A DNA stretch of 32,338 bases, taken from positions 1-32,338 of the forward strand of contig NZ_JACSWC010000166.1 in NCBI RefSeq assembly GCF_016888165.1, read 5' to 3'. The stretch's first letter is position 1. The number at the start of each line of letters is the position of its first letter. The translations under genes were made by a program, and so were the position numbers. The notes below the pieces were generated by a model that was not told where the DNA came from, searched no databases, and worked only from the letters and a program-made list of their open reading frames with translations. Shown piece after piece: positions 1,043-31,030 of the stretch. The DNA is from Halomicronema sp. CCY15110. GTDB lineage: Bacteria > Cyanobacteriota > Cyanobacteriia > Phormidesmidales > Phormidesmidaceae.

Positions 1043-2809
1043 ATGTCTCTGGAACCGCCATCATCTCAGTCAGAAATTCAAGATTCCAGCATCGACGCTT
1101 CAGAGCCCACTTCTGAAGCGTTAACTTTTGAAGACTCATCGCCAGCACCGTCATTTACTCAACCTTCACAACCCGCCTATCGCCGCTATGGTCGCGCGTT
1201 GTTGGGGCTGGGGGTGTTTACCGTGTTGAGTGGCGGCATTTTGCTGATTACTCAGCAGATTAAGCCTGCTAATTCTATGGCCGGGGTGGAAGGCCATGAT
1301 ATGTCGGGGATGTCCCACGACGACATGATGCAGGTAGATGGGGCGTTTAACGCAGTGCCCGTCACGGTGGCAGTGGTGCAAGCAGGAAACTTTGAGGCTG
1401 GGGTTTCCTACACGGGTTCGATCATGCCCTACCAAGAAGCGGTGGTGTATCCGCGCGTAGCGGGGCAGTTGACCAACTATTCGGTGTATCCGGGCGATCG
1501 CGTCGAAGCCGGACAAGTGCTGGCCGAGCTGATTGCCGATGAGCGCTCGACTGCGCTAGCTGAAGCGAGCGCTGAGGCTAATGTGATGCAGACTTCCTTG
1601 CAGGTGAGCCAGGTCGAAATCGATGAGCAACAGCAGGAAATTGCTCGCCTCCAGGCAGAACTCGATTATGTGAATCTCCAGCGCGATCGCTTTGCCAAAC
1701 TCACTGCCGAGGGCGCAACTTCCCAAAACGAGTACGATGCCGTTGCGACGGAGGTGGCGGCGCAAGAAGCGGCTTTAGGTCAGGCCCAGGCAAAACTGAC
1801 TCGTCTCACTGCTCAGGTAACACGAGAGCAAGCTAGAGTCGGACAGGCCGAAGCCAGGGTCAACACCGCTGCCGTGATGCAGGGCTACACCACTTTGCAA
1901 GCTCCCATCAGCGGCATTGTGCAGAGTCGCATGGTTGATCCGGGTGTCGTGGTGCAGCCGGGGATGGGCGTGCTGAAAGTTGGCGACTACTCGCGGGTGC
2001 GGCTGCAGGCCAACGTGGCCCAAAAAGATGCAGGCTACATCCGGGTGGGCACCCCCATTCGCGCCCAAGTGCCGGGAGCCACCGACGAACCACTCACCGG
2101 CAGCGTCACCAGTATCTTTCCCCAGACCAACAATGACACCCGCACCGTCATGGTGGAAGCGCTGATCGATAATCCCCAGGGGCGCTTGCTGTCAGGCCAG
2201 TATTTGGAAATGACGCTGCTGACGAAGAGCCAGAGCAATACCCTGTCGGTGCCGCAATCGGCGGTGGTGGAGTACAACAGTGAGCCGTCCGTGTGGGTGA
2301 TGGTAGGCACCACTGCCGAGCGGCGGATGGTGGAAACCGGCATGGTGAGCAGCGATATGGTCGCTATTACCAGCGGCCTGAATCCGGACGATCAGGTCAT
2401 CACGTCAGGCTACAGCCGTTTAGTACCCGGTGTTCAGGTAGCCGTAGTCGATGACACAGGCAATCCCTTACCCATGCTGGGGGACAGCAGCCAGGGGAAT
2501 GTGGAAGTGGCGATCGTCGAGCCTGATTCCACCCAAAGCTTTAAGTCGGGAGGCGCTGATCTGGTGATAGAAGTGCGCGACCCCGATACTCAGGAACCGT
2601 TGCCCGTTGAGGACGTAACTGTCGATGTCACGATGCCCATGCCCAACATGGCTCCGATGACCACCATGGTGCAGTTCGAGCCCACGGGTCAGCCGGGACG
2701 GTTCCAGATCAAAACTCACTTCGGCATGGTGGGGGAATGGCAGATCAAAGTCGAGGTCAATGACCCTGACTACAAAGGCCAAGCTCTCATCGCCGTGCCG
2801 GTTGAGTAG
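1043..2809 (+). CDS. RND efflux periplasmic adaptor (HlyD/CusB type) with C-terminal YtkA/FixH-like domain
   Basis: The 588-residue protein links an inner-membrane RND pump to an outer-membrane channel. After a Ser/Pro-rich cytoplasmic stretch there is one membrane anchor (about 51-70), then a His/Met cluster HDMSGMSHDDMM (85-96) of the kind that binds soft metals. The two lipoyl half-motifs flank a long alpha-helical hairpin (about 170-275), the second half reading APISGIVQSRMVDPG. Beta-barrel and membrane-proximal domains follow. Residues 487-588 are an added domain like YtkA/FixH, with Met at 531, 533, 536, 539 and 542. The same domain is the whole of the next gene. The permease at 3626 is its obvious partner; no outer-membrane factor is encoded here. 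Metal specificity (Cu/Ag suspected from the Met-rich patches) is inferred. Confidence 0.88.
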   Translation: MSLEPPSSQSEIQDSSIDASEPTSEALTFEDSSPAPSFTQPSQPAYRRYGRALLGLGVFTVLSGGILLITQQIKPANSMAGVEGHDMSGMSHDDMMQVDGAFNAVPVTVAVVQAGNFEAGVSYTGSIMPYQEAVVYPRVAGQLTNYSVYPGDRVEAGQVLAELIADERSTALAEASAEANVMQTSLQVSQVEIDEQQQEIARLQAELDYVNLQRDRFAKLTAEGATSQNEYDAVATEVAAQEAALGQAQAKLTRLTAQVTREQARVGQAEARVNTAAVMQGYTTLQAPISGIVQSRMVDPGVVVQPGMGVLKVGDYSRVRLQANVAQKDAGYIRVGTPIRAQVPGATDEPLTGSVTSIFPQTNNDTRTVMVEALIDNPQGRLLSGQYLEMTLLTKSQSNTLSVPQSAVVEYNSEPSVWVMVGTTAERRMVETGMVSSDMVAITSGLNPDDQVITSGYSRLVPGVQVAVVDDTGNPLPMLGDSSQGNVEVAIVEPDSTQSFKSGGADLVIEVRDPDTQEPLPVEDVTVDVTMPMPNMAPMTTMVQFEPTGQPGRFQIKTHFGMVGEWQIKVEVNDPDYKGQALIAVPVE

Positions 2810-2830
2810 CGCGATATCGCGCTTTTGTTT
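2808..2830 (+). terminator. Hairpin with T-rich tail after the adaptor gene
   Basis: A perfect 16-bp palindrome, AGCGCGATATCGCGCT (2808-2823), overlaps the stop codon and is followed by TTTGTTT. It could end or attenuate transcription between the adaptor and the lipoprotein gene 45 bp downstream, lowering expression of the later genes or protecting the 3' end. The stem leaves only a tiny loop, so strength is uncertain. Confidence 0.4.
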
Positions 2831-2867
2831 AGTGTCCTTTCTTTAAATCAACGTAGTTGAGGATTGC

Positions 2868-3314
2868 ATGAAAAAAGTTCTGTTACTTTTGGCGGTGGTT
2901 GGATTGTTGAGTACGGCCTGCGGTAGCGCCAATCAGGCGGAGACGGAAGCCCCGGATGCGGCGGCTGCGCCAGCGGCGGAGACAACTGAGGCGGCTGCAT
3001 CGGCGGGGGTGGCGATCGCCCTCATTACTCCGGAAGACGCCTCCGTGCCAATGGGTGATGCGGAACTAGTGCTGCAGGTGGTTGACCCAGCGACCAACGA
3101 GCCCGTTGCCGTTGAAAATCTGGAAGTTGACCTCTCAATGCCGATGGATGGGATGGATCCCATGACTACGATGGCGGTTGTCGAGCCGGGAGCAGAAGCG
3201 GGTCAATACAAGGTCATGACCAACCTGGGCATGGAAGGCATGTGGATGATGACAGTTAAATCCGCCGATGCGGCGATGCCCGGTGAGGCGGTCTTCAACC
3301 TGGATGTGAAGTAG
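2868..3314 (+). CDS. YtkA/FixH-like Met-rich lipoprotein
   Basis: The 148-residue product begins with a short lipoprotein signal ending in LLSTAC, with the acylated Cys at 18, followed by an Ala/Glu/Thr-rich tether (about 20-46). The remainder is one YtkA/FixH-like beta-sandwich that closely parallels the tail of the preceding adaptor: both have a VVDP/VRDP strand, an MPM..M.PMTTM segment (91-102 here) and a final GM..MW/GEW strand. Extra Met residues at 122, 125, 127 and 128 make it richer in Met than the adaptor copy. It probably sits on the periplasmic face and hands soft metal ions to the pump, or senses them; this is inference from composition and position. A G-poor leader gives no strong ribosome-binding site, but the ATG follows the signal-peptide pattern well. 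Confidence 0.75.
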   Translation: MKKVLLLLAVVGLLSTACGSANQAETEAPDAAAAPAAETTEAAASAGVAIALITPEDASVPMGDAELVLQVVDPATNEPVAVENLEVDLSMPMDGMDPMTTMAVVEPGAEAGQYKVMTNLGMEGMWMMTVKSADAAMPGEAVFNLDVK

Positions 3315-3409
3315 ATCCCTATCCCCTCCTCGGAGCTATCCATTCGGCAGAACTCTGTCAAAGACTTGTATAGCAAGGTTTCTGACATTGAGTTGCAGGG
3401 GGTAAAACC

Positions 3410-3468
3410 TCACCGCCTTGATAAACCTCTCCTTGCGTGGGCGTAGCCTGCCCGGAGAGGTTAGGTGA
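3410..3468. repeat. Nested inverted repeat in a 311-bp spacer
   Basis: Arms AACCTCTCC (3424-3432) and GGAGAGGTT (3454-3462) are perfectly complementary, with outer arms TCACC (3410-3414) and GGTGA (3464-3468). The loop holds GGCGTAGCC (3440-3448), a core common in dispersed short repeats of filamentous cyanobacteria. It lies in the gap between the lipoprotein and the permease, so it could be a small non-autonomous repeat or an RNA hairpin that sets relative expression. No gene is visible in the rest of 3315-3625. Confidence 0.5.
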
Positions 3469-3625
3469 AGTTCTACAGCCCATAAAACTACCGCAACCGA
3501 TCTCTGCAACCTTTCCCCGACAAGCGATGCACCAACTTGTGTACAAGGGATAGCTCCCAGGAGGGAATTGTGTTTGCGCTCTTTTTCCCTAACTATTTCC
3601 CCCTGTTTTTAGGGCATTTAAGACG

Positions 3626-6600
3626 ATGAAAAGTTTTCTGACCAACTGGTCGATCAAGCATCCGGTCATCGTCGCTGCGGCCTATATTGCCGTGCTGGTG
3701 CTGTCGGTGTTGACACTGTTCCTGCTGCCAGTGCGGATGATGCCCTATGTGCAGAGTCCGCTGGTGTCGATCGTCACGATGGCTCCCGGCTCTTCTCCAA
3801 CGGAAGTGGAAACCTACATCAGTAAGCCGATTGAGCAGCGGATGACGGTACTGGATGGGGTGCGATTCATTCGCTCCAGCTCTCAGCAGGACATGTCCCT
3901 GGTGACGATTCAGTTTGCCTGGGGAGACGACATCGGCCAAGCGGTGCAGTCCGTCCAGAGTGTGATGACCGCAGCCGAGGGGGATATCGAGCTGGATGGC
4001 TTCAACTCCCGTTCCTATTGGGTGCTGCCCATCGATCCGCTGAACCGTCCGGTGCTGACCCTGGCCCTGCGAGGGGAGGGCTGGGATCCCGTACAGCTGC
4101 GGGAATTTGCCGATAATGCCTTGGTCGATCGCCTGACTCAGGTGCCCAATGTGCAGGCGGTGTCGATCTTTGGGGGCTATCGACGGCAGCTTCAGGTCGT
4201 GGTGGATCGTCAGCAGCTAGCGGCCTATGGGCTGTCGATTTTGCAGATACGGGATGCGATCGACGCCAACAATATCAGCCAGGGAGCCGGGGTACTCACC
4301 CAGGGGGATTCCGAGATTCTGGTGCGGGCTGATAAGCGAGCGCTGAGTGCCGCCGATGTGATGGATTATCCGGTGCTAGAGCAGGATGGCCAGGTGGTCT
4401 ATGTTCGCGATGTGGCGACGGTAAAAGACACCTTTGAGGAACGGCGCAGCGGCTACCGCTACAACGGTGAGGCGGCGCTGGCCGTAAATATTATTCAAAA
4501 GCCGGACTCCAGCTCCCCTCAGGTAATTAAGCAAGTGCGGGCCGAGCTGGCACAGATTCAGGCCGAAAATCCGGGCCTCAGCTTTGAGGAGGCCTACGAC
4601 AATTCCTACCTGGTCAACATCATCCTCGACAGTACCTTTCAAGAACTGCTGATTAGCGTGCTGCTGGCGGGGATTGTGATTCTGGTCTTTTTAGAAGACT
4701 TTCGGGCCACGGCGATCATCATGATCTCCATTCCCACCTCGTTAGCGCTTTCCACCCTGCCCTTCATTCCCATCGAGATGTCCCTCAACTCCTCGACGCT
4801 AATTGGGATGATGATGGCGATCGGTAAGCTGGTGGATGACTCGATTATCGTCATCGACTCCATTGACCAAAAGCTTCGCCAAGGCTTTCAACCGATGCCG
4901 GCAGCGATCCGAGGCACTGGGGAAGTGTTTTTGGCGAGTGCGGCAGCCAGCTGTGTGATGATTGCGGCGCTGTTGCCGACTATTCTCGCTGGAGGACTGA
5001 CGGGACTGATGTTTGTCGGGCTGGTTTGGCCTATGGTGTTTGCCTTCATCGCCTCGCTGATTGTATCGATCACGCTGATTCCCTTAATTGCGGCGTTTGT
5101 GCTCAAACCAGTTCAGGAACGACGGCAGCGGCAGACCTGGCTGCAATGGCTCATGACCCCGGTAAGGGTAGGCTTTCAAAACCTGGAGCAAGGCTATGGT
5201 TGGCTGCTCGATCGCTGCATGAACCATCGGGAAATTACGCTGGCGATCGCGGGTTCTGCAATTGTGCTGGCGATCGCCCTCTACCCCTTTGTGCCCCAAG
5301 AAATGATGCCCCTGGGGGATTCCGGCCAGTTCATGGCTTCCCTGGAGATGGAAGCGGGCACCTCCTTTGCCAAGACGGACGAGAGCGTGTACCAGCTAGA
5401 GCAGCTCTTGCTGGCCCAGCCCGATATTGCCAAGGTGTCTGCTCAGACCGGCTTTGAGCTGACTCGCAACAGCACTTACTTCAGCGGCTACAGCATGGGC
5501 AGCGTCAACTCGGCGTCCCTGATTGTCACCCTGAAGGACCAGCGGCAGCGCGACATCTGGGAAATTATGGACAGCGTCGAAGCGGAAGCCCGCCGCACGA
5601 TTCCCGGCCTGCGCCGCATTGCTTTCAAAGAAATGGGTGTCGACGTGATGGCGACCTCCGCCGCGCCTATTCAACTCGCCGTCTATGGCGAAGATCTAGA
5701 GGTGCTCCACCGTCTGGCCGAGGGCGTGCTCCGCATTGCTGAAGACACGCCTGGTTTGGTGATGGCTCAAACCAGTTCTGCCTTGACCCAGCCGGAATAT
5801 CAGCTCACGGTCGATCGCCGCCGCGCCCAAGAGTTGGGGCTGAACGTGCGCATGGTGGCGCAACAAGCTCGCTATGCCTTGAATGGTGGCTTTACCCAGC
5901 GCTACTACAACCGCCCTAACCTACGCCAGAACTCGATTTTGGTGCGCTATGAGGAGAGCGATCGCGGCACCCTCGACAACCTGGCGGGTACTTACATTAC
6001 GACCCCAACGGGACAACAGGTGCCGCTGAACACGGTGGCTACTCTGGAGCGTCAGAACGGCCCCACCCTGATTGAGCATGTGGGCGGCAAACGGGTCGTG
6101 TACGTCAACGGCTACTACCGCAAAGGTGGGCCAGCGTCGATGGATCTGTCGATGGCGATCGCCATGCGGGCGGGGCAAGAACTCGCCTTTCCCCCCGGCT
6201 ACGGGGTTGATTCCATGGGCGATATGACCGACATGATGATCGAGTTCGATCGACTACTGAAAGGGCTGTTAGTGTCGTTGGTTTTGATTTACCTGATTCT
6301 GGTGATTCAGTTTGGCTCCTTCATTCAACCCCTGGTGATGATGTTGTCGGTGCCGTTGCAACTGGTGGGGGTTTTCGGCGGCTTGATCCTAGCCCAGCAG
6401 ACCCTCTCCAGCGTGTCGATTCTGGGGATTGTGATTTTGTCGGGACTATCGCTCTCAGCAGCGATTCTGTTGCTAGAGCTGATTTTGGCGAAACGAGCTG
6501 AAGGCGTACCCCGCGATGAGGCGATCCGCATGGCAGGCCCAGTGCGGCTGAAGGCGATTACCATGACGACACTGACGACGGTAATTGTGATTGTGCGGCT

Positions 6601-6799
6601 GGCCTTTTTCCCCGAAATCGGCATGGATGCCTATTCACCAATCGCCACTGTGATTTTAGGCGGGTTACTGCTCTCCACGCTGCTGACGCTGGTAGTGGTG
6701 CCAGTGGTGTATTCCTTTATTGACGATGCGACGGTATGGCTCAAGCGTCAGGGGCGGCGTCCGGTTCCGAAAAAGTTGGACCCTATCATTGGTGAGTAG
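3626..6799 (+). CDS. RND-family efflux permease
   Basis: The 1057-residue inner-membrane pump has the full duplicated RND layout: TM1 near residues 12-33, a periplasmic loop with the PIEQRM segment, TM2-6, a second periplasmic loop and TM8-12. In TM4 the proton-relay pair is D404-D405 (GKLVDDSI), as in AcrB D407/D408. In TM10 the motif that reads GLSAKNAIL in AcrB is GLSLSAAIL, so the essential Lys is Ser944 and the next Asn is Ala945. TM11 carries Arg991 where AcrB has Pro. The protein resembles multidrug/HAE-type pumps more than CusA, but the gene order (adaptor, Met-rich lipoprotein, pump, two-component system) points to metals. The ATG at 3626 gives the usual short N-terminus before TM1. 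Confidence 0.92.
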   Translation: MKSFLTNWSIKHPVIVAAAYIAVLVLSVLTLFLLPVRMMPYVQSPLVSIVTMAPGSSPTEVETYISKPIEQRMTVLDGVRFIRSSSQQDMSLVTIQFAWGDDIGQAVQSVQSVMTAAEGDIELDGFNSRSYWVLPIDPLNRPVLTLALRGEGWDPVQLREFADNALVDRLTQVPNVQAVSIFGGYRRQLQVVVDRQQLAAYGLSILQIRDAIDANNISQGAGVLTQGDSEILVRADKRALSAADVMDYPVLEQDGQVVYVRDVATVKDTFEERRSGYRYNGEAALAVNIIQKPDSSSPQVIKQVRAELAQIQAENPGLSFEEAYDNSYLVNIILDSTFQELLISVLLAGIVILVFLEDFRATAIIMISIPTSLALSTLPFIPIEMSLNSSTLIGMMMAIGKLVDDSIIVIDSIDQKLRQGFQPMPAAIRGTGEVFLASAAASCVMIAALLPTILAGGLTGLMFVGLVWPMVFAFIASLIVSITLIPLIAAFVLKPVQERRQRQTWLQWLMTPVRVGFQNLEQGYGWLLDRCMNHREITLAIAGSAIVLAIALYPFVPQEMMPLGDSGQFMASLEMEAGTSFAKTDESVYQLEQLLLAQPDIAKVSAQTGFELTRNSTYFSGYSMGSVNSASLIVTLKDQRQRDIWEIMDSVEAEARRTIPGLRRIAFKEMGVDVMATSAAPIQLAVYGEDLEVLHRLAEGVLRIAEDTPGLVMAQTSSALTQPEYQLTVDRRRAQELGLNVRMVAQQARYALNGGFTQRYYNRPNLRQNSILVRYEESDRGTLDNLAGTYITTPTGQQVPLNTVATLERQNGPTLIEHVGGKRVVYVNGYYRKGGPASMDLSMAIAMRAGQELAFPPGYGVDSMGDMTDMMIEFDRLLKGLLVSLVLIYLILVIQFGSFIQPLVMMLSVPLQLVGVFGGLILAQQTLSSVSILGIVILSGLSLSAAILLLELILAKRAEGVPRDEAIRMAGPVRLKAITMTTLTTVIVIVRLAFFPEIGMDAYSPIATVILGGLLLSTLLTLVVVPVVYSFIDDATVWLKRQGRRPVPKKLDPIIGE

Positions 6800-6813
6800 C
6801 CAAATTCTTGACG

Positions 6814-7503
6814 ATGCGAGTTCTGCTGGTTGAAGATGAGCCCGACTTGGGCAAAGCCATCAAGCGTACCCTCACCCAGGAAGCGTATGTAGTGGACTGG
6901 GTGCAGTCGGGAGACGAGGCGCTGGCTTATCTGGAGCATGACTTGTCACTCTACACCGTAGGCGTGTTTGACTGGATGCTGCCAGGAATGTCCGGAATTG
7001 AGCTATGCCAGTGGCTGCGATCGCACCACCATGCTCTCCCCGTCTTAATTCTCACCGCTAAAGACCAAATTACTGATCGCATCACGGGGCTGGATGCCGG
7101 GGCCGATGACTATCTGGTCAAACCTTTTAGCATGGCCGAACTGTTAGCGCGGCTACGAGCCCTGCGACGGCGATCGCCCGACCTCAAGCCCAGTACACTA
7201 CAGATCGGGCCATTGATGTTGGACTGCGATCGCCGCATCGCCTTCCTGAAAACTGATCACACTGAACAGCCCATCGAACTCACCCAAAAAGAGTTTCAAC
7301 TGCTGCAATATTTCATGGAGCATCCGAATCAAATTTTGGCCCGTGACCAGGTGCTCAACCAACTCTGGGAAATTGGGGCGGAGCCCAATAGCAATGTAGT
7401 GGCGGCCCAGATGCGCCTGCTCCGCCGCAAATTGGCCCAGCATGGCTGTGAAGACTTTATCGAGACTGTCTATGGTATGGGATACCGCCTCAACGCCCAA
7501 TAA
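6814..7503 (+). CDS. OmpR/PhoB-type response regulator (RppA/NrsR/CopR-like)
   Basis: The product starts MRVLLVEDEPDLGKAIK and has an intact receiver: acidic pair E7-D8, phospho-acceptor D53 in DWMLPGMSG, switch Thr in LTAKD and Lys in VKPF. A winged helix-turn-helix DNA-binding domain fills about residues 130-228. The DWMLPGMSG form recalls the cyanobacterial RppA/NrsR group that controls metal efflux. I chose ATG at 6814; a TTG at 6808 would add two residues. A GGTGAG ribosome-binding site overlaps the permease stop, so translation is probably coupled to the pump. Its likely target is the TTTCA(T/C) repeat array at 977-1012. Confidence 0.88.
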   Translation: MRVLLVEDEPDLGKAIKRTLTQEAYVVDWVQSGDEALAYLEHDLSLYTVGVFDWMLPGMSGIELCQWLRSHHHALPVLILTAKDQITDRITGLDAGADDYLVKPFSMAELLARLRALRRRSPDLKPSTLQIGPLMLDCDRRIAFLKTDHTEQPIELTQKEFQLLQYFMEHPNQILARDQVLNQLWEIGAEPNSNVVAAQMRLLRRKLAQHGCEDFIETVYGMGYRLNAQ

Positions 7504-8854
7504 ACTGTTTCGCCGCAGTCGTCGGCAACTTACCGTCTGGTATACCGGCGTGATGGCAGTCGTGCTGGGGCTGAGCGGATTGGGCGTCTACGAAGCGATC
7601 GCCCATGCCCACCGAGTCACCGCTGACCGTGAACTAAAGTCAGTCGCTGAAACCGTTCACAATGCGCTGGAAAAGACCCTGACCACCAATGGTCAGATCA
7701 ACGGGGTTTCTCCGAACTTGCTGCCGAATCTATGCGTGGCCGGAGAGCCCTGTCGGGTGCCCTTCGAGCGATCGCGGGGACATCACCAGGGCACCCTCTA
7801 TCGAGGTAGCTATTACTTTCGAGTCTTATCCCCAGAGCAGGATCTCATCGCCACCGCAGGGGTTTATCCAGAAGGCCTGCCTGCCGCAAACCCAAATGAC
7901 TCCTGGCAAACGGTATGGGACGCCGCTGGCAACGAGTATCGACAAATCGCCCTGCCTCTGTATGACCCGAACCAGCAGGCTCAACTCGGCACACTGCTGG
8001 TGGGGCGCTCCTTCAGCGACTTTGCGACCTACCTGACCATGATTCGGTGGATTATTTTGCTCAGTCTGCCCATCACAATGGGGCTAATTGCGGCGGCGAG
8101 CTGGTGGTTAGCAGGATTGGCACTAAAGCCCGTGCAGGTGTCCTATCGCAAAATTCAACAGTTCACCGCCGATGCGGCCCACGAATTGCGGACGCCGCTA
8201 ACCGCTTTACAGGCCACTGCTGAGTCCGTTATGCGGTTACCTGAAATTTCCGATGCCAATGCCCGTGAGATGCTGCAGGTCACGACTCGGCAAAACCAGC
8301 GGCTGACGACCTTGGTGAGCGATTTACTGTTACTGTCTCGTCTCGATACCCAAAGCCCGGCGAAAAAGACACCCTGCTGCCTTCAGGATATCCTCAGCGA
8401 TATCGAAGAAGAACTCGCGGCTTTGGCCATCTCCAACGATGTCCACCTCATGCTTGACCAGCCCCAAGCACCCGCGATCGTGGTGCTGGGCACCGAAGAA
8501 CACCTCTATCGATTAATATTCAACCTTGTCAGCAATGCCCTTCAGCACACCCCCGCTGGTGGAAAAGTGAGCATCCGACTCCGGCAGACCGTTCGCAAGA
8601 CATTTCCCGAAGGCGAAAAGCATCAGGCGGTGGTGACGGTTGAAGATACTGGCATCGGTATCGCGCCCGCAGACCAAACCAAAATCTTCGATCGCTTCTA
8701 CCGAGTCGAAAAAGATCGCTCCCGTCAGAGCGGCGGCTCCGGGTTGGGACTGTCGATCGCCCTGGCGATCGCTCTGGCCCACGGCGGCGATATTCAGGTA
8801 CAGAGTCAGGTCGGACAGGGCAGCACGTTTATCGTTACACTTTCTGCCTCTTAG
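7472..8854 (+). CDS. Membrane histidine kinase of the metal-efflux locus (RppB/NrsS/CopS-like)
   Basis: The gene overlaps the regulator by 32 bp. An alternative ATG at 7442 would lengthen it by ten residues. Layout: a first membrane helix (about 23-43), a periplasmic sensor of about 140 residues, a second helix (about 190-215), a dimerisation domain with phospho-acceptor His237 in AAHELRTPLTAL, and an ATPase domain with N box (FNLVSNALQHTP), G1 (DTGIGIAP) and G2 (SGGSGLGLSIA). The sensor holds Cys88 and Cys94 (CVAGEPC) and His104-His105, plausible ligands for a metal ion. It should phosphorylate the preceding regulator when periplasmic metal rises. The ligand is not readable from sequence. 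Confidence 0.88.
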   Translation: MVWDTASTPNKLFRRSRRQLTVWYTGVMAVVLGLSGLGVYEAIAHAHRVTADRELKSVAETVHNALEKTLTTNGQINGVSPNLLPNLCVAGEPCRVPFERSRGHHQGTLYRGSYYFRVLSPEQDLIATAGVYPEGLPAANPNDSWQTVWDAAGNEYRQIALPLYDPNQQAQLGTLLVGRSFSDFATYLTMIRWIILLSLPITMGLIAAASWWLAGLALKPVQVSYRKIQQFTADAAHELRTPLTALQATAESVMRLPEISDANAREMLQVTTRQNQRLTTLVSDLLLLSRLDTQSPAKKTPCCLQDILSDIEEELAALAISNDVHLMLDQPQAPAIVVLGTEEHLYRLIFNLVSNALQHTPAGGKVSIRLRQTVRKTFPEGEKHQAVVTVEDTGIGIAPADQTKIFDRFYRVEKDRSRQSGGSGLGLSIALAIALAHGGDIQVQSQVGQGSTFIVTLSAS

Positions 8855-9151: not shown

Positions 9152-10066
9152 TTAGGCCTGATTTTTCAAAAATCCCATCAGGTTATTCAAAAAGGATTGA
9201 CTCACTGGCTCGCGGGTGGCATTCACGGTCTCGGGTGAGCTCGGAGGCAATTTTTTGGCCGGGGACGGAGTCGCCTCAGCCGCTGCTGCTTTGGGTGGTT
9301 GGCTGCTGATCAACGGCGGCTGCGGGGTGGATACTGGTTTCAGTATGGGGACTTCTTCCAGCAGACTCACCACAATTAACCGAAAAGCAATTTGCTGAAT
9401 TTGCCGGACCGAAAGCTGCAGGTGTTTAGCAATTTCTTTGAGAGACGTACGGCCGTCGGTAAATTCCCAAACTTGCCATTCCGCTTGCTTGAGCTTCAAG
9501 GTCGGTTTGCCATCAATCATGCTGATTAATGCCGCATTCGGGTCGGGCAACTTTTCTTCAAGCACCGTCCAGTTTTTGAGCGCTCGGAGGCCCGATAGCG
9601 TCACATCTAACGCTGGAGCGCTTAATCCCGTGGCTTCGGACAAGGGGGTCTTTTGCGAGCTATCGAAGTGAAACCAGCCATCTTCAAGGGCAAAGAGAGC
9701 ACATACCTGCTGCATCACCTGGATGTAAAATAGCATCCGCAGTTGGTCGGCCTCTAGAATACCTTGGGATTTGAAGCAGAGTCCGGCTGGGGTGGAGAGA
9801 TCGCAACTTTTTAGCAAGCGACCAGCAGCATGACTGCCCAGCCAGCCTCGCTTGTCGATCAGCGTGACCAGACCGCGACCATCGGAGCGGTTGGCCGCCG
9901 TGGTGATACGACCCTGCTGAAACCAGATGTAGTGCGATCGCGACGTGTGGTGGTCAGTGGGTTCTGGGAGCGGAGTAATTGTGAGTAAGCCAGTCTTATG
10001 GCCTTGTTCTAAAAACTGAAATATTTCAGCCAGTGAAAATTCTGCGAGGTGTCCGGTGATAGCCAT
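9152..10066 (-). CDS. PATAN/DUF4388-domain protein
   Basis: The 304-residue protein starts MAITGHLAEFSLAEIFQFLE, the typical opening of a PATAN (DUF4388) domain, here about residues 1-165 with the GLLTI and YIWFQQGRITTA strands. Residues about 180-240 look like a winged-helix unit (TSLKEIAKHLQLSVRQIQQIA). A Pro/Ala/Ser-rich linker (about 243-285) leads to an amphipathic end, SQSFLNNLMGFLKNQA. PATAN domains are known from cyanobacterial PatA and from PATAN-CheY regulators that bind type IV pilus motor proteins. This one has no receiver. As last clear gene after a GTPase and roadblock protein, it may be an effector of that switch. The short C-terminal helix could be a docking peptide. Confidence 0.75.
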   Translation of the reverse strand: MAITGHLAEFSLAEIFQFLEQGHKTGLLTITPLPEPTDHHTSRSHYIWFQQGRITTAANRSDGRGLVTLIDKRGWLGSHAAGRLLKSCDLSTPAGLCFKSQGILEADQLRMLFYIQVMQQVCALFALEDGWFHFDSSQKTPLSEATGLSAPALDVTLSGLRALKNWTVLEEKLPDPNAALISMIDGKPTLKLKQAEWQVWEFTDGRTSLKEIAKHLQLSVRQIQQIAFRLIVVSLLEEVPILKPVSTPQPPLISSQPPKAAAAEATPSPAKKLPPSSPETVNATREPVSQSFLNNLMGFLKNQA

Positions 10067-10803: not shown

Positions 10804-11175
10804 CTACTGCAATAATGTCTTGAGTTCAGTGACTGCCCGCTTAATTTCCAGCAGCAGCAGTCCTTGTTTGGCGGCTTGGCTAGCGAGCACCAAAAAGACC
10901 GCATCTTCACTACAACTGGTCAGAATGCCATAGCCGGTATTGCCTTCTACGTAGATGCGATCGATGCTGCCTCGGGCCAGTTCGCCGCCGATGCGCTCAC
11001 CGAGTGACAACATGGCTGCCGACATGGCCGAAACCCGTTCTTCATCCATGCCGCCGGGCAAGGTTGCGGCTAGGGGTAAGCCGTCCGGTGTGACGAGGGC
11101 CGCCCCTTGCACATCATTGGTACTTGAGACAAAGTTCTGCAGGATAGCAGAGATTTTTTCCAAATTGATAGCCAT
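10804..11175 (-). CDS. Roadblock/LC7-domain protein (MglB-like)
   Basis: The 123-residue protein is a single roadblock/LC7 domain: an N-terminal helix (about 3-18), strands at GAALVTPDGLPLAATL, a central helix MSAAMLSLGERIGGEL, and strands IDRIYVEG and GYGILTSC before a last helix. In bacteria such homodimers bind small GTPases and often act as GTPase activators (MglB for MglA). The cognate GTPase is the next gene. AAGAGG lies nine bases before the ATG. No membrane or DNA-binding segment is present, so it should act in the cytoplasm. Confidence 0.88.
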   Translation of the reverse strand: MAINLEKISAILQNFVSSTNDVQGAALVTPDGLPLAATLPGGMDEERVSAMSAAMLSLGERIGGELARGSIDRIYVEGNTGYGILTSCSEDAVFLVLASQAAKQGLLLLEIKRAVTELKTLLQ

Positions 11176-11228: not shown

Positions 11229-11786
11229 CTAGGTACTAGCGGCGGCACCAGTGGCGATCATGCGCTTGAAGAGTTTTTCCGTCCAACCGGTTTCTTTAAG
11301 AACGGCGGCGGTTGAGATTTCTAGATAAGCTTGCTCAATAAAAGCCAAATCAATCATGCAAATGCGTGATAGGGCATCGTGCAGCTCGTCAGATTTGCCT
11401 TCGCTGCGGAGGCGCTGACCCACTTCATTGACGACTGTGGCCATGGCGGGCACCACATGTTGAGGGCCAATGCCCACGCGGACATGAATCAGACCAATGC
11501 GCCAACGGCGATCGGCATAGTCGGTGCCCCAGTCATCCATGCCAGTAAACATTTCATGAAACCACTCGACAAAGGTTTCGCGAAGACGATGGATGCGCCC
11601 TTCCGATTCATTTAGAATGGCGTTCATTTCTTCGTCGTTACCCATGTAGGTATAAAAGGCATCTGCCATGTCAGGGGCAATCTCCAGCCCCCAGTCAGCA
11701 CTGGCCTGAAGAATCGCCCGATCTTCTGGAGTGAAGTTCGTACGCCGGGCCATCCGGGTCATAAATTCGTGGGAGTCGAGTACCAT
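11229..11786 (-). CDS. Single-domain protoglobin (heme-binding globin sensor fold)
   Basis: From the ATG at 11786 (preceded by CAAGAGAC) the protein has 185 residues, close to archaeal protoglobin. The pattern REDRAILQ-type pre-helix, then ETFVEWFHEMFTGMDDW and RIGLIHVRVGI, is that of the protoglobin/globin-coupled-sensor fold. His101 in LIHVRVGI is the expected proximal heme ligand. No transmitter domain (kinase, GGDEF or MCP) is attached, so any signal must pass to a partner. The roadblock gene begins only 53 bp downstream. Likely ligands are O2, NO or CO (family knowledge). An upstream extension to 11861 is open but does not resemble the family. A phycobilisome-like or adaptor role without heme cannot be excluded. 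Confidence 0.75.
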   Translation of the reverse strand: MVLDSHEFMTRMARRTNFTPEDRAILQASADWGLEIAPDMADAFYTYMGNDEEMNAILNESEGRIHRLRETFVEWFHEMFTGMDDWGTDYADRRWRIGLIHVRVGIGPQHVVPAMATVVNEVGQRLRSEGKSDELHDALSRICMIDLAFIEQAYLEISTAAVLKETGWTEKLFKRMIATGAAAST

Positions 11787-12386
11787 TTGCTGTGTCTCTT
11801 GCGCATTGATGTACCTCTCTGTAATAACAAGCCAAAATCTCAGGCAGCATGGGATTAACACGTAGAGAAAAGATTGTGTAAACCCATGTGTGATTCCATT
11901 TACATTTCTTTTTGAATACGAGAGTAAGCCACAATCATGATGTCTTTATCTTAGTAATCAACTCTTTGATGTCGGAGGCGATCGCTGCATATTTTCAGGC
12001 ATTCACACTATTCTTGTTAAGTCGTCATCTAAGTTGATTGAATAACTTGTCTCGACGGCCCAACTTATGTTCTGCAATCTATATCCAGAGAGGCTTTGCT
12101 GGTAAAACAACATCCTCCTTGTTTAAGTTAAATGCTTAATAATGACTGCTTTTTTTGTTTGTCCACTTAGCTACAATCCGACAGAGTATGTATTCTTTCT
12201 CAATGCTTTTTTTGTGGGGAAATGTTGAGCCTTGTGCGAAATATGTTGTTAATGAGAAAAATCTAATTTTTAACGATGTACAAGCCGCATTGAGAATTAT
12301 TTTGTTTCGGTAAAATTACTCAAGATTGGGGTTTTAACGCCTCCAATGTCTAGATATTCATTTTTCGTAACCTTCATTTAGGCCTC
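11787..12386. other. AT-rich spacer of about 600 bp before the protoglobin run
   Basis: No frame here looks like a gene. Base composition shifts sharply to A+T compared with the GC-richer flanks, most clearly from about 11930 to 12380. It must contain the promoter of the protoglobin-roadblock-GTPase-PATAN run. It could also hold a small RNA, though I see no defined structure besides the repeats noted separately. Confidence 0.5.
11877..11904. promoter_or_regulatory. Possible operator: TGTAAA-N16-TTTACA
   Basis: TGTAAA (11877-11882) and TTTACA (11899-11904) form a perfect inverted repeat about 90 bp upstream of the protoglobin start, where a dimeric regulator could control the unit. It does not match the NtcA site (GTA-N8-TAC). 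In an AT-rich region such a pair may be chance. Confidence 0.2.
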
Positions 12387-12414
12387 AAAAAAACCCCGAT
12401 GAATGTCATCGGGG
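12387..12414 (-). terminator. Rho-independent terminator of the hemerythrin gene
   Basis: Read on the minus strand, CCCCGATG (12414-12407) pairs with CATCGGGG (12401-12394) across a 5-base loop and is followed by seven T. It lies about 45 bp after the hemerythrin stop, on the correct strand. This is the clearest intrinsic terminator in the window, and it separates hemerythrin from the protoglobin unit. Confidence 0.9.
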
Positions 12415-12460
12415 CTCGCCAGTCTCTGTAGAATGTGGTTTGAGGTGTCAAGAAAAATTA

Positions 12461-12883
12461 CTACGCTTGTGACGTGGACTTGGCATGGCTGATGCACTGA
12501 CCAATCTGGGTGTCGATCTTCATGATGTGGCCGACTAGCCAGTCGGCTAACTGTTGATGAGCTTGGCGGGCGATCGCTTCACTGGCCCCGCTTTCACGAT
12601 ACTCAACTTGGAGATTGCTGAAGATTTCTAAAAATCTCGCATGGGCTTGCTTATTGGTATCGGCAATGGGGCATTGATGCCTGGCGGCACAGCCTTCTTC
12701 ATTCTCAAAATGCCACTCTGCATAGTATTTAAGAAATGTCAGCAGTTTTTTGATCGCGCTGGTACCGTTACCACTCTCAATCGCATCGGATAAATCATTG
12801 AAGGCGTAGATAAGTTCTTTATGTTGGGTATCAATCATGGGGACGCCAACTTTCAATTTGTCACTCCATTCAAATTTCTGCAT
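12461..12883 (-). CDS. Bacteriohemerythrin with one substituted iron ligand
   Basis: The 140-residue single-domain protein matches the bacteriohemerythrin length and layout. Expected di-iron ligands are His21 (TQHKEL), His58 and Glu62 (WHFENEE), His81 (QAHARF), His119 and Asp124 (GHIMKID). The seventh ligand, normally His in the HxxxH pair, is Asn77 (codon AAT where CAT would give His). The segment just before is also odd: CAARHQC holds two Cys and His69. Such proteins reversibly bind O2 in the cytoplasm or sense it. Here the site may hold altered iron, bind NO rather than O2, or use His69. It is probably transcribed alone, given its own terminator. Confidence 0.9.
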   Translation of the reverse strand: MQKFEWSDKLKVGVPMIDTQHKELIYAFNDLSDAIESGNGTSAIKKLLTFLKYYAEWHFENEEGCAARHQCPIADTNKQAHARFLEIFSNLQVEYRESGASEAIARQAHQQLADWLVGHIMKIDTQIGQCISHAKSTSQA

Positions 12884-29716: not shown

Positions 29717-31030
29717 TCACGTTTGCCCCGTCGTCCCCGCTGGACGCTGAATGATTTCCTCCAGTACCCGTTGCCGGTTTTGGGGATCGACGCCAATCAG
29801 CCGCACATACTCATCAGGAAAACTGACTAAACAGTGCTCCAGCGCCGCGATCGCTTCGTCCGGGTTTTGCGTTTTGATCGTGGTGCAACTCTGCCAGGAA
29901 TTGGTGCGAAATCGGCGCTGATCCACATGTTCCGCACTAATGCGATAGCCCTGCTGCAATAGCGACTGCACCTGGCGCACGGTCTCGGGTGACAACGCCG
30001 CAGTCGGCCCCGATGGCGGGGGCGATGACGGGGTGACCGCAGTCGGGGCATTCCCTGTACTTGATTCAGGAGTAGTGTCGGGTGTCGCCTCGTAGGCACG
30101 ATAGAAACTGGCGGGAGGTGGCGACGCCGTCGGGTGAGCCGGCGATCGCTCCCGCAAGGCCCGGTTATATTGATCCGCCAACCGCATTTCTTGCAGGTAG
30201 CGCTGCTCGTTGACCATCTGCTGCCCGACTTGTAGCAGGTGCTCCAAGGAAAACTGTGGCTGGGGAAAATGTAGGGGTTCCGCCGCATTCACCACCCGAC
30301 TCGACACCTGTTGAATGCCGACAGCATGAATGAAGTCGCGCACCTGCTCGTCATAAATGCGCGCCCGCAGCGCCCCGTAAAAATCGATCGCCTGTTGGGG
30401 AAACGTATCCACCAGTTGCTCAATCGCCGCTGCTCCCAGATTGTCAGGGGCAAAGATGCCGCCCACAATGCCGACGCGATCGCGGCGATCGGGCTGCCAG
30501 TAAAACTTTTCCATGCGGCCATCCCGCACGAGGGGTTCATACAGGGTGGCAAAGTCATTACCCGTGACAATGACTGGCACCCGTTGAACAGGCTTGTCAT
30601 CATAGCTGCCGGGCAACTGCACATTCGTCGGATTGTCGGCAATATTCATCAGCGTGTTGTTCACCAACTGGGTGTTGACGGTATATTGCGTCATCGCGTC
30701 AAACCGTCCTGCCCCCGCATCCAAGTCGTTGATCATCAGCACGGCCATCACGCCCCGCACCCGCACCAGTTCCGCCGCTTCGCGATAGCGCAGACGAATG
30801 AGCCGGGCCGGATCGCCCGCATCGGGACTTTCTAACTCGCCACCGGAGATGTGAACGACTTCAATGCCCATCTGCTCGTAGACCAGCTCGCACTGAAAGG
30901 TCTTGCCTTCGCCTTTACGTCCGTGGACACCCAAAATTACCGGCACTCTGACCCCATCGAGGTTGAGGTAATTTTTGGTGATGTGAACCGCGAGTTTGTC
31001 CAAAAAGCGCGGCGAAATGTAGTAATTCAT
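29717..31030 (-). CDS. rca: Rubisco activase with C-terminal small-subunit-like (SSUL) domain
   Basis: The AAA+ enzyme remodels inhibited Rubisco. The 437-residue protein has a P-loop GRKGEGKT (37-44), Walker B AVLMINDLDAGAGR (96-109), sensor VPVIVTGNDF and the arginine-containing DGRMEKFYWQPDRRDR, all typical of green-type Rca. After a Pro/Ser/Thr-rich linker (about 296-345) comes an SSUL domain (about 346-428) with RISAEHVDQRRFRTNSWQSC and Cys382/Cys400. Related SSUL domains of CcmM bind Rubisco and are redox-controlled; in cyanobacterial Rca the domain is known to target it to the carboxysome. No Rubisco genes lie nearby. A minus-strand regulator precedes it by 112 bp. Confidence 0.95.
   Translation of the reverse strand: MNYYISPRFLDKLAVHITKNYLNLDGVRVPVILGVHGRKGEGKTFQCELVYEQMGIEVVHISGGELESPDAGDPARLIRLRYREAAELVRVRGVMAVLMINDLDAGAGRFDAMTQYTVNTQLVNNTLMNIADNPTNVQLPGSYDDKPVQRVPVIVTGNDFATLYEPLVRDGRMEKFYWQPDRRDRVGIVGGIFAPDNLGAAAIEQLVDTFPQQAIDFYGALRARIYDEQVRDFIHAVGIQQVSSRVVNAAEPLHFPQPQFSLEHLLQVGQQMVNEQRYLQEMRLADQYNRALRERSPAHPTASPPPASFYRAYEATPDTTPESSTGNAPTAVTPSSPPPSGPTAALSPETVRQVQSLLQQGYRISAEHVDQRRFRTNSWQSCTTIKTQNPDEAIAALEHCLVSFPDEYVRLIGVDPQNRQRVLEEIIQRPAGTTGQT

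Follow-up and report, generated by a model that had tools for sequence, protein, structure and literature searches.

An Asn-type bacteriohemerythrin subfamily with conserved cysteines, and its gene neighborhood in a Halomicronema genome

The window, the whole stretch of 32,338 nucleotides from Halomicronema sp. CCY15110 analyzed here (contig NZ_JACSWC010000166.1), encodes a bacteriohemerythrin in which asparagine takes the place of an iron-ligand histidine. Is this an odd copy of a familiar protein or a member of a distinct kind, and what might such a protein do?

Ligand set and alignment register

The gene and the codons on which the argument turns are:
12461..12883, minus strand: Asn-type bacteriohemerythrin gene, ATG start, 140 aa
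12653..12655, minus strand: codon 77, AAT (Asn), first helix-C ligand position (from sequence and alignments)
12671..12673, minus strand: codon 71, TGC (Cys71; from counts in relatives)
12689..12691, minus strand: codon 65, TGT (Cys65, E62+3; from counts in relatives)
12494..12496, minus strand: codon 130 (Cys130, D124+6; from counts in relatives)

The plus strand of 12461-12883 contains in-frame stops. The product of the minus-strand frame passes the curated cut-offs of the bacteriohemerythrin models TIGR02481 (113.2 bits; cut-off 51.75) and NF033749 (98.1 bits; cut-off 84), as well as that of Pfam Hemerythrin (49.9 bits; cut-off 25.3), and has the predicted four-helix hemerythrin fold. It is the single TIGR02481 match found in the Halomicronema genome, a draft of 443 contigs. 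H21, H58, E62, H81, H119 and D124 are all present, bearing out an earlier note on this DNA that had counted six of seven ligands intact. The canonical set of O2-binding hemerythrins, H-HxxxE-HxxxH-HxxxxD, is interrupted at the first His of HxxxH: ungapped alignments place Asn77 opposite the first His of RHKEIH in DcrH-Hr and opposite the corresponding ligand His of the solved bacteriohemerythrin 4xpx, in agreement with the note's central claim.

An AlphaFold2 model built from 37 Asn forms (mean pLDDT 93.3, pTM 0.85) predicts helices at 15-36, 40-68, 74-98 and 102-139; solved hemerythrin domains come nearest to it, with DcrH-Hr at the top (Z 17.4, r.m.s.d. 2.2 over 131 residues; Foldseek E 4.1e-5). 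Because the ungapped DcrH-Hr and 4xpx alignments are joined by this confident hemerythrin-fold model, we regard the register, which the earlier note had wished to see checked against bacteriohemerythrins, as sound. The window protein shares fold, length and six ligands with DcrH-Hr (2avk, 3waq) and the Methylococcus protein (4xpx), but these keep His at position 77, and Cys65, Cys71 and Cys130 are new in the window protein. No solved Asn-form structure was recognized among 15 matching PDB sequences; His is present in the two alignments displayed and in 4xpx.

Asn77 and accompanying cysteines in relatives

Asn is shared by all seven of the nearest relatives (L003-L009; 39 related genomes), the check proposed in the earlier note, and neither another His at position 77 nor a CAT codon, the two outcomes named there as counter-evidence, was found in the window sequence or these relatives. 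A C-x5-C-[PA] motif ends six residues before the Asn in all of them except L005, where Val stands in for the first Cys. In five weaker matches (L010-L014) the residue at position 77 is His.

A wider collection of 328 loci yielded 303 distinct hemerythrin domains, of which 292 have a residue at each of the six other ligand positions and 287 the canonical six. The loci came from a pattern scan of genome contigs, 388 genomes of the window's class, 14 genomes behind loci, further stretches, and about 200 genomes each from the phyla represented by three records, one of Bacteroidota, one of Chloroflexota and one of Woeseiaceae (Pseudomonadota). The pattern scan relied on motifs that include the second Cys, and the search of the class on a profile of Asn forms; because both favored Asn forms, the share of Asn forms among the 303 (101 domains; codon AAC in 63, AAT in 38) is meaningless and the link between Asn and Cys is partly a product of selection.

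The 287 domains comprise 94 with Asn77, 188 with His77, four with Gln77 and one with a gap; seven Asn domains with a gap at some ligand place are excluded from the 94. Read with that selection in mind, Cys71 is present in 94 of 94 Asn forms versus 1 of 188 His forms (Tyr in 158), Cys65 in 89 of 94 versus 3 of 188 (Leu in 109), and Cys at D124+6 in 70 of 94 versus 1 of 188 (there Phe in 97 and Tyr in 37). Val or Leu replaces Cys65 in five of the 94 Asn forms, and the D124+6 position is without Cys in 24. All six other ligands are kept in each of the 94 Asn forms having letters at all six positions. In the sets gathered with TIGR02481 only (146 distinct domains: 11 Asn, 130 His, 5 Gln), Cys71 and Cys65 accompany Asn in 11 of 11 domains; of these 11, three (L192, L235, L237) are without H81 and one repeats an L050 domain in truncated form. 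Cys71 is found in 1 of 130 His forms. By set, Asn forms number 1 of 63 in Bacteroidota, 6 of 10 in Chloroflexota, 0 of 63 in Pseudomonadota (best-scoring 61 loci) and 4 of 10 in the genomes behind 14 loci; one Pseudomonadota Asn form (L056) was found by the pattern scan.

Both Cys of the CAARHQC segment, which the earlier note had suspected to matter, thus co-vary with Asn77 in relatives. Its proposal of His69 (codon CAT) as a new ligand is rejected: His at position 69 occurs in 59 of 101 Asn forms (Tyr in 34) and also in 48 of 194 His forms, and since its state is not tied to Asn77, His69 lies outside the package. The note missed the third conserved Cys, Cys130, and the genomic partners described below. 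We propose to delimit an Asn-type subfamily by Asn77 together with Cys71, with the six other ligands kept; the window protein has all of these.

A sequencing error (CAT misread as AAT) or a private, decaying copy, for which one might cite the single base between these codons, the 443-contig draft and the lack of any Asn form in five other genomes of the genus (G001-G005), has virtually no chance of being correct and is rejected by the relatives, given Asn in all seven of the nearest and in 101 distinct domains, written with both Asn codons and accompanied by Cys71. Judged from these sequences, Asn77 is neither a private mutation nor a sequencing error. The earlier observation was real but mis-sized: the codon is indeed AAT, one base from His, but what had looked like an oddity is the fixed state of a large, conserved variant subfamily.

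A tree of 168 domains, from which columns 65, 71, 72 and 77 were left out, groups all 54 Asn rows behind one branch (SH-aLRT 99; 57 rows), together with a deletion row (L120) and two His rows (L229, L232) whose placement is weakly supported; both His rows have Tyr71 and no Cys65, and L232 is also without H58. With these trait columns removed, the window protein lies within the clade of Asn forms. In a reduced tree of 54 Asn and 29 His rows, for which long-branched His rows were dropped and every fourth other His row was retained, a tree constrained to keep all Asn rows in a single clade is not rejected (p-AU 0.945) and has a better likelihood than the free search. Because the Asn rows group in one clade, we read the link between Asn77 and Cys as the signature of one old lineage rather than of many independent co-changes. 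By record title, Asn forms occur in Cyanobacteria, Chlorobiota, Acidobacteriota, Omnitrophota, Chloroflexota, Verrucomicrobiota, Bacteroidota, Gemmatimonadota and Pseudomonadota, where many records are metagenome bins whose phylum assignment can be wrong. Within the window's class, 59 of 388 genomes carry an Asn form at 130 bits or more. No dedicated NCBIfam model for the subfamily was found: 37 members matched only five general hemerythrin models.

Several copies depart from the common pattern. A Bacteroidota bin (L050) has three tandem hemerythrin genes (at about 951, 1998 and 2536), one an Asn form and the other two keeping His77 with Cys65 and further Cys. Degenerate cyanobacterial Asn-form copies occur in L115 (G050) and L120 (G171), one without H58, H81 and H119 and the other with a deletion at a ligand segment. 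L192, L235 and L237 are Asn forms with H81 changed to Arg and further losses, possibly metal-free derivatives. L110, L112 and L121 carry a second kind of Asn form, with Leu65 and an extended helix-D region; in L110 and L112 it stands in tandem with a full Asn form. Among plasmid-borne relatives, matched by overall identity whatever their residue 77, 17 records were found, all below 60% identity.

Altered ligands in hemerythrins are not new in themselves. In the portions considered of Bailly 2008 (PMC2556348), hemerythrins with a single altered ligand mostly carry the change in helix C (45 of 71), and Asn is the new residue in 7 of 71 His changes; those of Alvarez-Carreno 2016 (PMC4919030) describe 106 single-domain hemerythrins, cyanobacterial ones included, that vary at ligands. 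These text portions do not connect the Asn with Cys residues, with a single clade or with neighboring genes. Proteins of the cyanobacterial subgroup a1, tlr1993 among them, may correspond to the Asn form. A helix-C motif is also changed in the P1B-5-ATPase hemerythrin-like domain, where, in the source text considered, HxE stands for HxxxH; this is a different substitution in a different protein. Our literature search, with subscription papers largely outside it, returned no report tying Asn77 to the Cys package. His-to-Asn changes in hemerythrins are thus already published; the four-position package, and the gene cluster to which we now turn, were not found in this search.

Gene neighborhood

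Downstream of the hemerythrin gene the window contains:
12387..12416, minus strand: probable intrinsic terminator, a hairpin followed by a T run, 45 bp past the hemerythrin stop (fold -21.6 kcal/mol, z -4.0)
11229..11861, minus strand: protoglobin gene (PF11563; profile match), start codon uncertain
10804..11175, minus strand: Roadblock/LC7 protein (MglB-like), one match in the genome
10136..10717, minus strand: small-GTPase-like protein (ATP_bind_1, 54.5 bits; Ras, Roc and TIGR00231 below cut-offs)
9152..10066, minus strand: DUF4388 protein (PF14332; profile match)

The five genes, for hemerythrin, protoglobin, Roadblock, GTPase and DUF4388 (PF14332, which we take to be the PATAN domain), are adjacent on one strand. 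Their order in the window is rearranged, with hemerythrin first instead of last and about 600 bp and the probable terminator before protoglobin. Given its leading position and the strong T-run hairpin past its stop codon, the hemerythrin gene probably has its own transcript; a consensus terminator scan listed one site, different from this hairpin.

Elsewhere in the window, a Rubisco-activase AAA protein fused to a Rubisco small-subunit-like domain is encoded at 29717-31030 (minus strand), and an HlyD protein whose C-terminal domain is YtkA-like, together with an AcrB-type pump and a histidine kinase, at 1043-8854 (plus strand), with an ORF amid them that matches response regulators.

Neighbors were counted in the 24 loci nearest the query (L015-L038), 22 of which have enough upstream sequence to judge. 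DUF4388 lies directly upstream of hemerythrin on the same strand in 16 of these 22, and the whole order protoglobin-Roadblock-GTPase-DUF4388-hemerythrin is present on one strand in 13; L034 is cut off. The Chlorobiota loci L032 and L036 have the order DUF4388-hemerythrin-Roadblock-GTPase, with gaps of 30 and 42 bp before hemerythrin; in L038 (Acidobacteriota) Roadblock is the sole partner, and the Asn form of an Omnitrophota locus has a PAS-GAF-GGDEF gene directly adjoining it. The available flanks of L015, L016, L019, L020 and L021, some of them the closest loci by sequence, contain no partner, and none of 23 more distant loci (L039-L061) has partners in a search with the window's proteins at E 1e-5. 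Genome-wide, 40 of the 59 genomes that carry an Asn form also have a protoglobin, against 41 of the 329 that do not (Fisher p 5e-18, kinship ignored and the window genome included); in 22 of those 40 it lies within 5 kb of the Asn form, and in 19 of the 59 no protoglobin match is present.

These neighborhoods bear on the likeliest of the rival explanations, namely that the protein is an O2 or NO store or scavenger without a signaling role and that its neighbors form a separate unit. The single-domain architecture, the terminator-like hairpin and roughly 600 bp before protoglobin in the window, and the many loci lacking partners nearby would all suit a store; the same-strand order kept in 13 loci, the short Chlorobiota gaps and the Omnitrophota GGDEF neighbor argue against it, and we rate it as a serious contender, though at somewhat below even chances.

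Known systems offer partial parallels. In the sections considered of PMC9388753, V. cholerae Bhr-DGC and Ferrovum Bhr-HD-GYP are likewise bacterial hemerythrin domains, with fast autoxidation and with signaling output controlled by the redox state of the iron; unlike the window protein, they are fused to their output and keep canonical ligands. HGbRL of Methylacidiphilum joins a globin to a Roadblock protein, and MglA/MglB-like genes are present in that genome (PMC4476040, in part); HGbRL is, however, a fusion with another globin class, and hemerythrin is unnamed in the text considered. MglA-MglB-PATAN neighborhoods, in which small-GTPase and Roadblock genes lie near PATAN genes, occur in Cyanobacteria too, but mention of globin or hemerythrin is absent from the portions of text considered (PMC4316618). 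The search described above, again with subscription papers largely outside it, found no report linking hemerythrin to a protoglobin-Roadblock-GTPase-DUF4388 cluster and no publication treating protoglobin, hemerythrin and Roadblock together.

A proposed altered iron site and a possible function

We give about even chances to the following reading: the window protein, a single-domain bacteriohemerythrin of the Asn-type subfamily, holds a diiron center whose Fe1 site is altered, and probably provides redox, O2 or NO input to a GTPase switch. According to the part of PMC9388753 considered, one iron of the diiron site has three His and the other two, and O2 binds the two-His iron.

Both irons would still be bound by the Asn-type protein, as we infer from the retention of the six other ligands in all 94 Asn forms. 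Presumably it is Fe1, the three-His iron, to which the His that opens HxxxH (position 77) belongs. Fe1 would then be left with two His and a weakly bound Asn, or with an open, water-filled place; it may be held less tightly and be easier to oxidize or easier for a second ligand to reach, and the reaction with O2, NO or peroxide may be faster or differently tuned. Asn and His exchange at one iron also in lipoxygenase.

The three Cys are predicted to lie at the end of helix B, in the BC loop and in helix D, at the same end of the bundle as Asn77, where, beside Fe1, they could relay or record redox state. A crude rigid-helix restraint model, whose figures are CB distances in the 20 best of 60 solutions and which leaves the loop residue Cys71 outside, gives 5.9-8.6 Å for C65-Fe1, 4.8-12.7 Å for C65-C130, 4.2-10.7 Å for C65-N77 and 10.5-11.8 Å for C130-Fe1. 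It is compatible with C65 and C130 lying close together and near Fe1, unbonded to it, and is given little weight because its residual strain is high.

A disulfide switch, with the pairs 65-130 or 65/71 oxidized by peroxide or by the iron's own oxidation and thereby changing the shape of the protein, would account for three Cys replacing Leu, Tyr and Phe at one end and would suit the 4.8 Å between the C65 and C130 CB atoms in the best restraint solutions. The same distance spans 4.8-12.7 Å over the 20 best, however, and 24 of 94 Asn forms have no Cys at D124+6; such a switch is conceivable, if rather less probable than its absence. Direct ligation, with a thiolate from Cys65 (alternatively from Cys71 or Cys130) bound to Fe1, or with a second metal ion held by the three Cys and Asn, is invited by the appearance of all three Cys with the loss of His77 and by the shared bundle end expected from the helix ends. 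Val or Leu at position 65 in 5 of 94 and the absence of Cys130 in 24 of 94 would nonetheless be odd for essential ligands, and with the length of a thiolate-iron bond as yardstick, 5.9-8.6 Å from the Cys65 CB to Fe1 is too far in the crude, strained restraint model, so that we consider ligation unlikely. We think that an altered diiron site with a nearby thiol switch is likelier than Cys ligation. That the fold is metal-free and serves only in partner binding appears very improbable: one ligand is lost throughout and three Chloroflexota-type copies (L192, L235, L237) have lost more, but all 94 Asn forms counted above retain the six other ligands, a pattern that speaks for selection on a metal site.

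If the reading of an altered diiron site feeding a GTPase switch holds, the partners of the Asn-type hemerythrin would be the protoglobin, the Roadblock protein, the small GTPase and the DUF4388/PATAN protein; the gene order suggests that gas or redox state sets the switch, which may in turn steer type IV pili. The link to motility is reasoned from three points, each from sources considered in part: Roadblock proteins act as regulators of MglA-like GTPases (PMC4476040), genes for such GTPases have PATAN genes nearby (PMC4316618), and the pilus motor PilB1 of Synechocystis is a binding target of PATAN regulators (PMC12288463). In its fullest form, which we put forward as doubtful, the proposal is that Asn-type hemerythrins are distinct diiron sensors with a two-His Fe1 beside a redox-reading cysteine cluster, which together with a heme protoglobin would give a double gas and redox input to a Roadblock/small-GTPase/PATAN switch steering type IV pili; cyanobacteria and Chlorobiota would thereby have their surface motility guided by a sense of oxygen or redox state.

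A fixed, natural His-to-Asn change at one iron of a diiron site, with three Cys alongside, offers nature's own test of the way in which first-shell ligands govern autoxidation and the choice of gas in hemerythrins. If the cluster is a working unit, it would be a candidate O2, NO or redox sense, acting via a small GTPase, for O2-making cyanobacteria.
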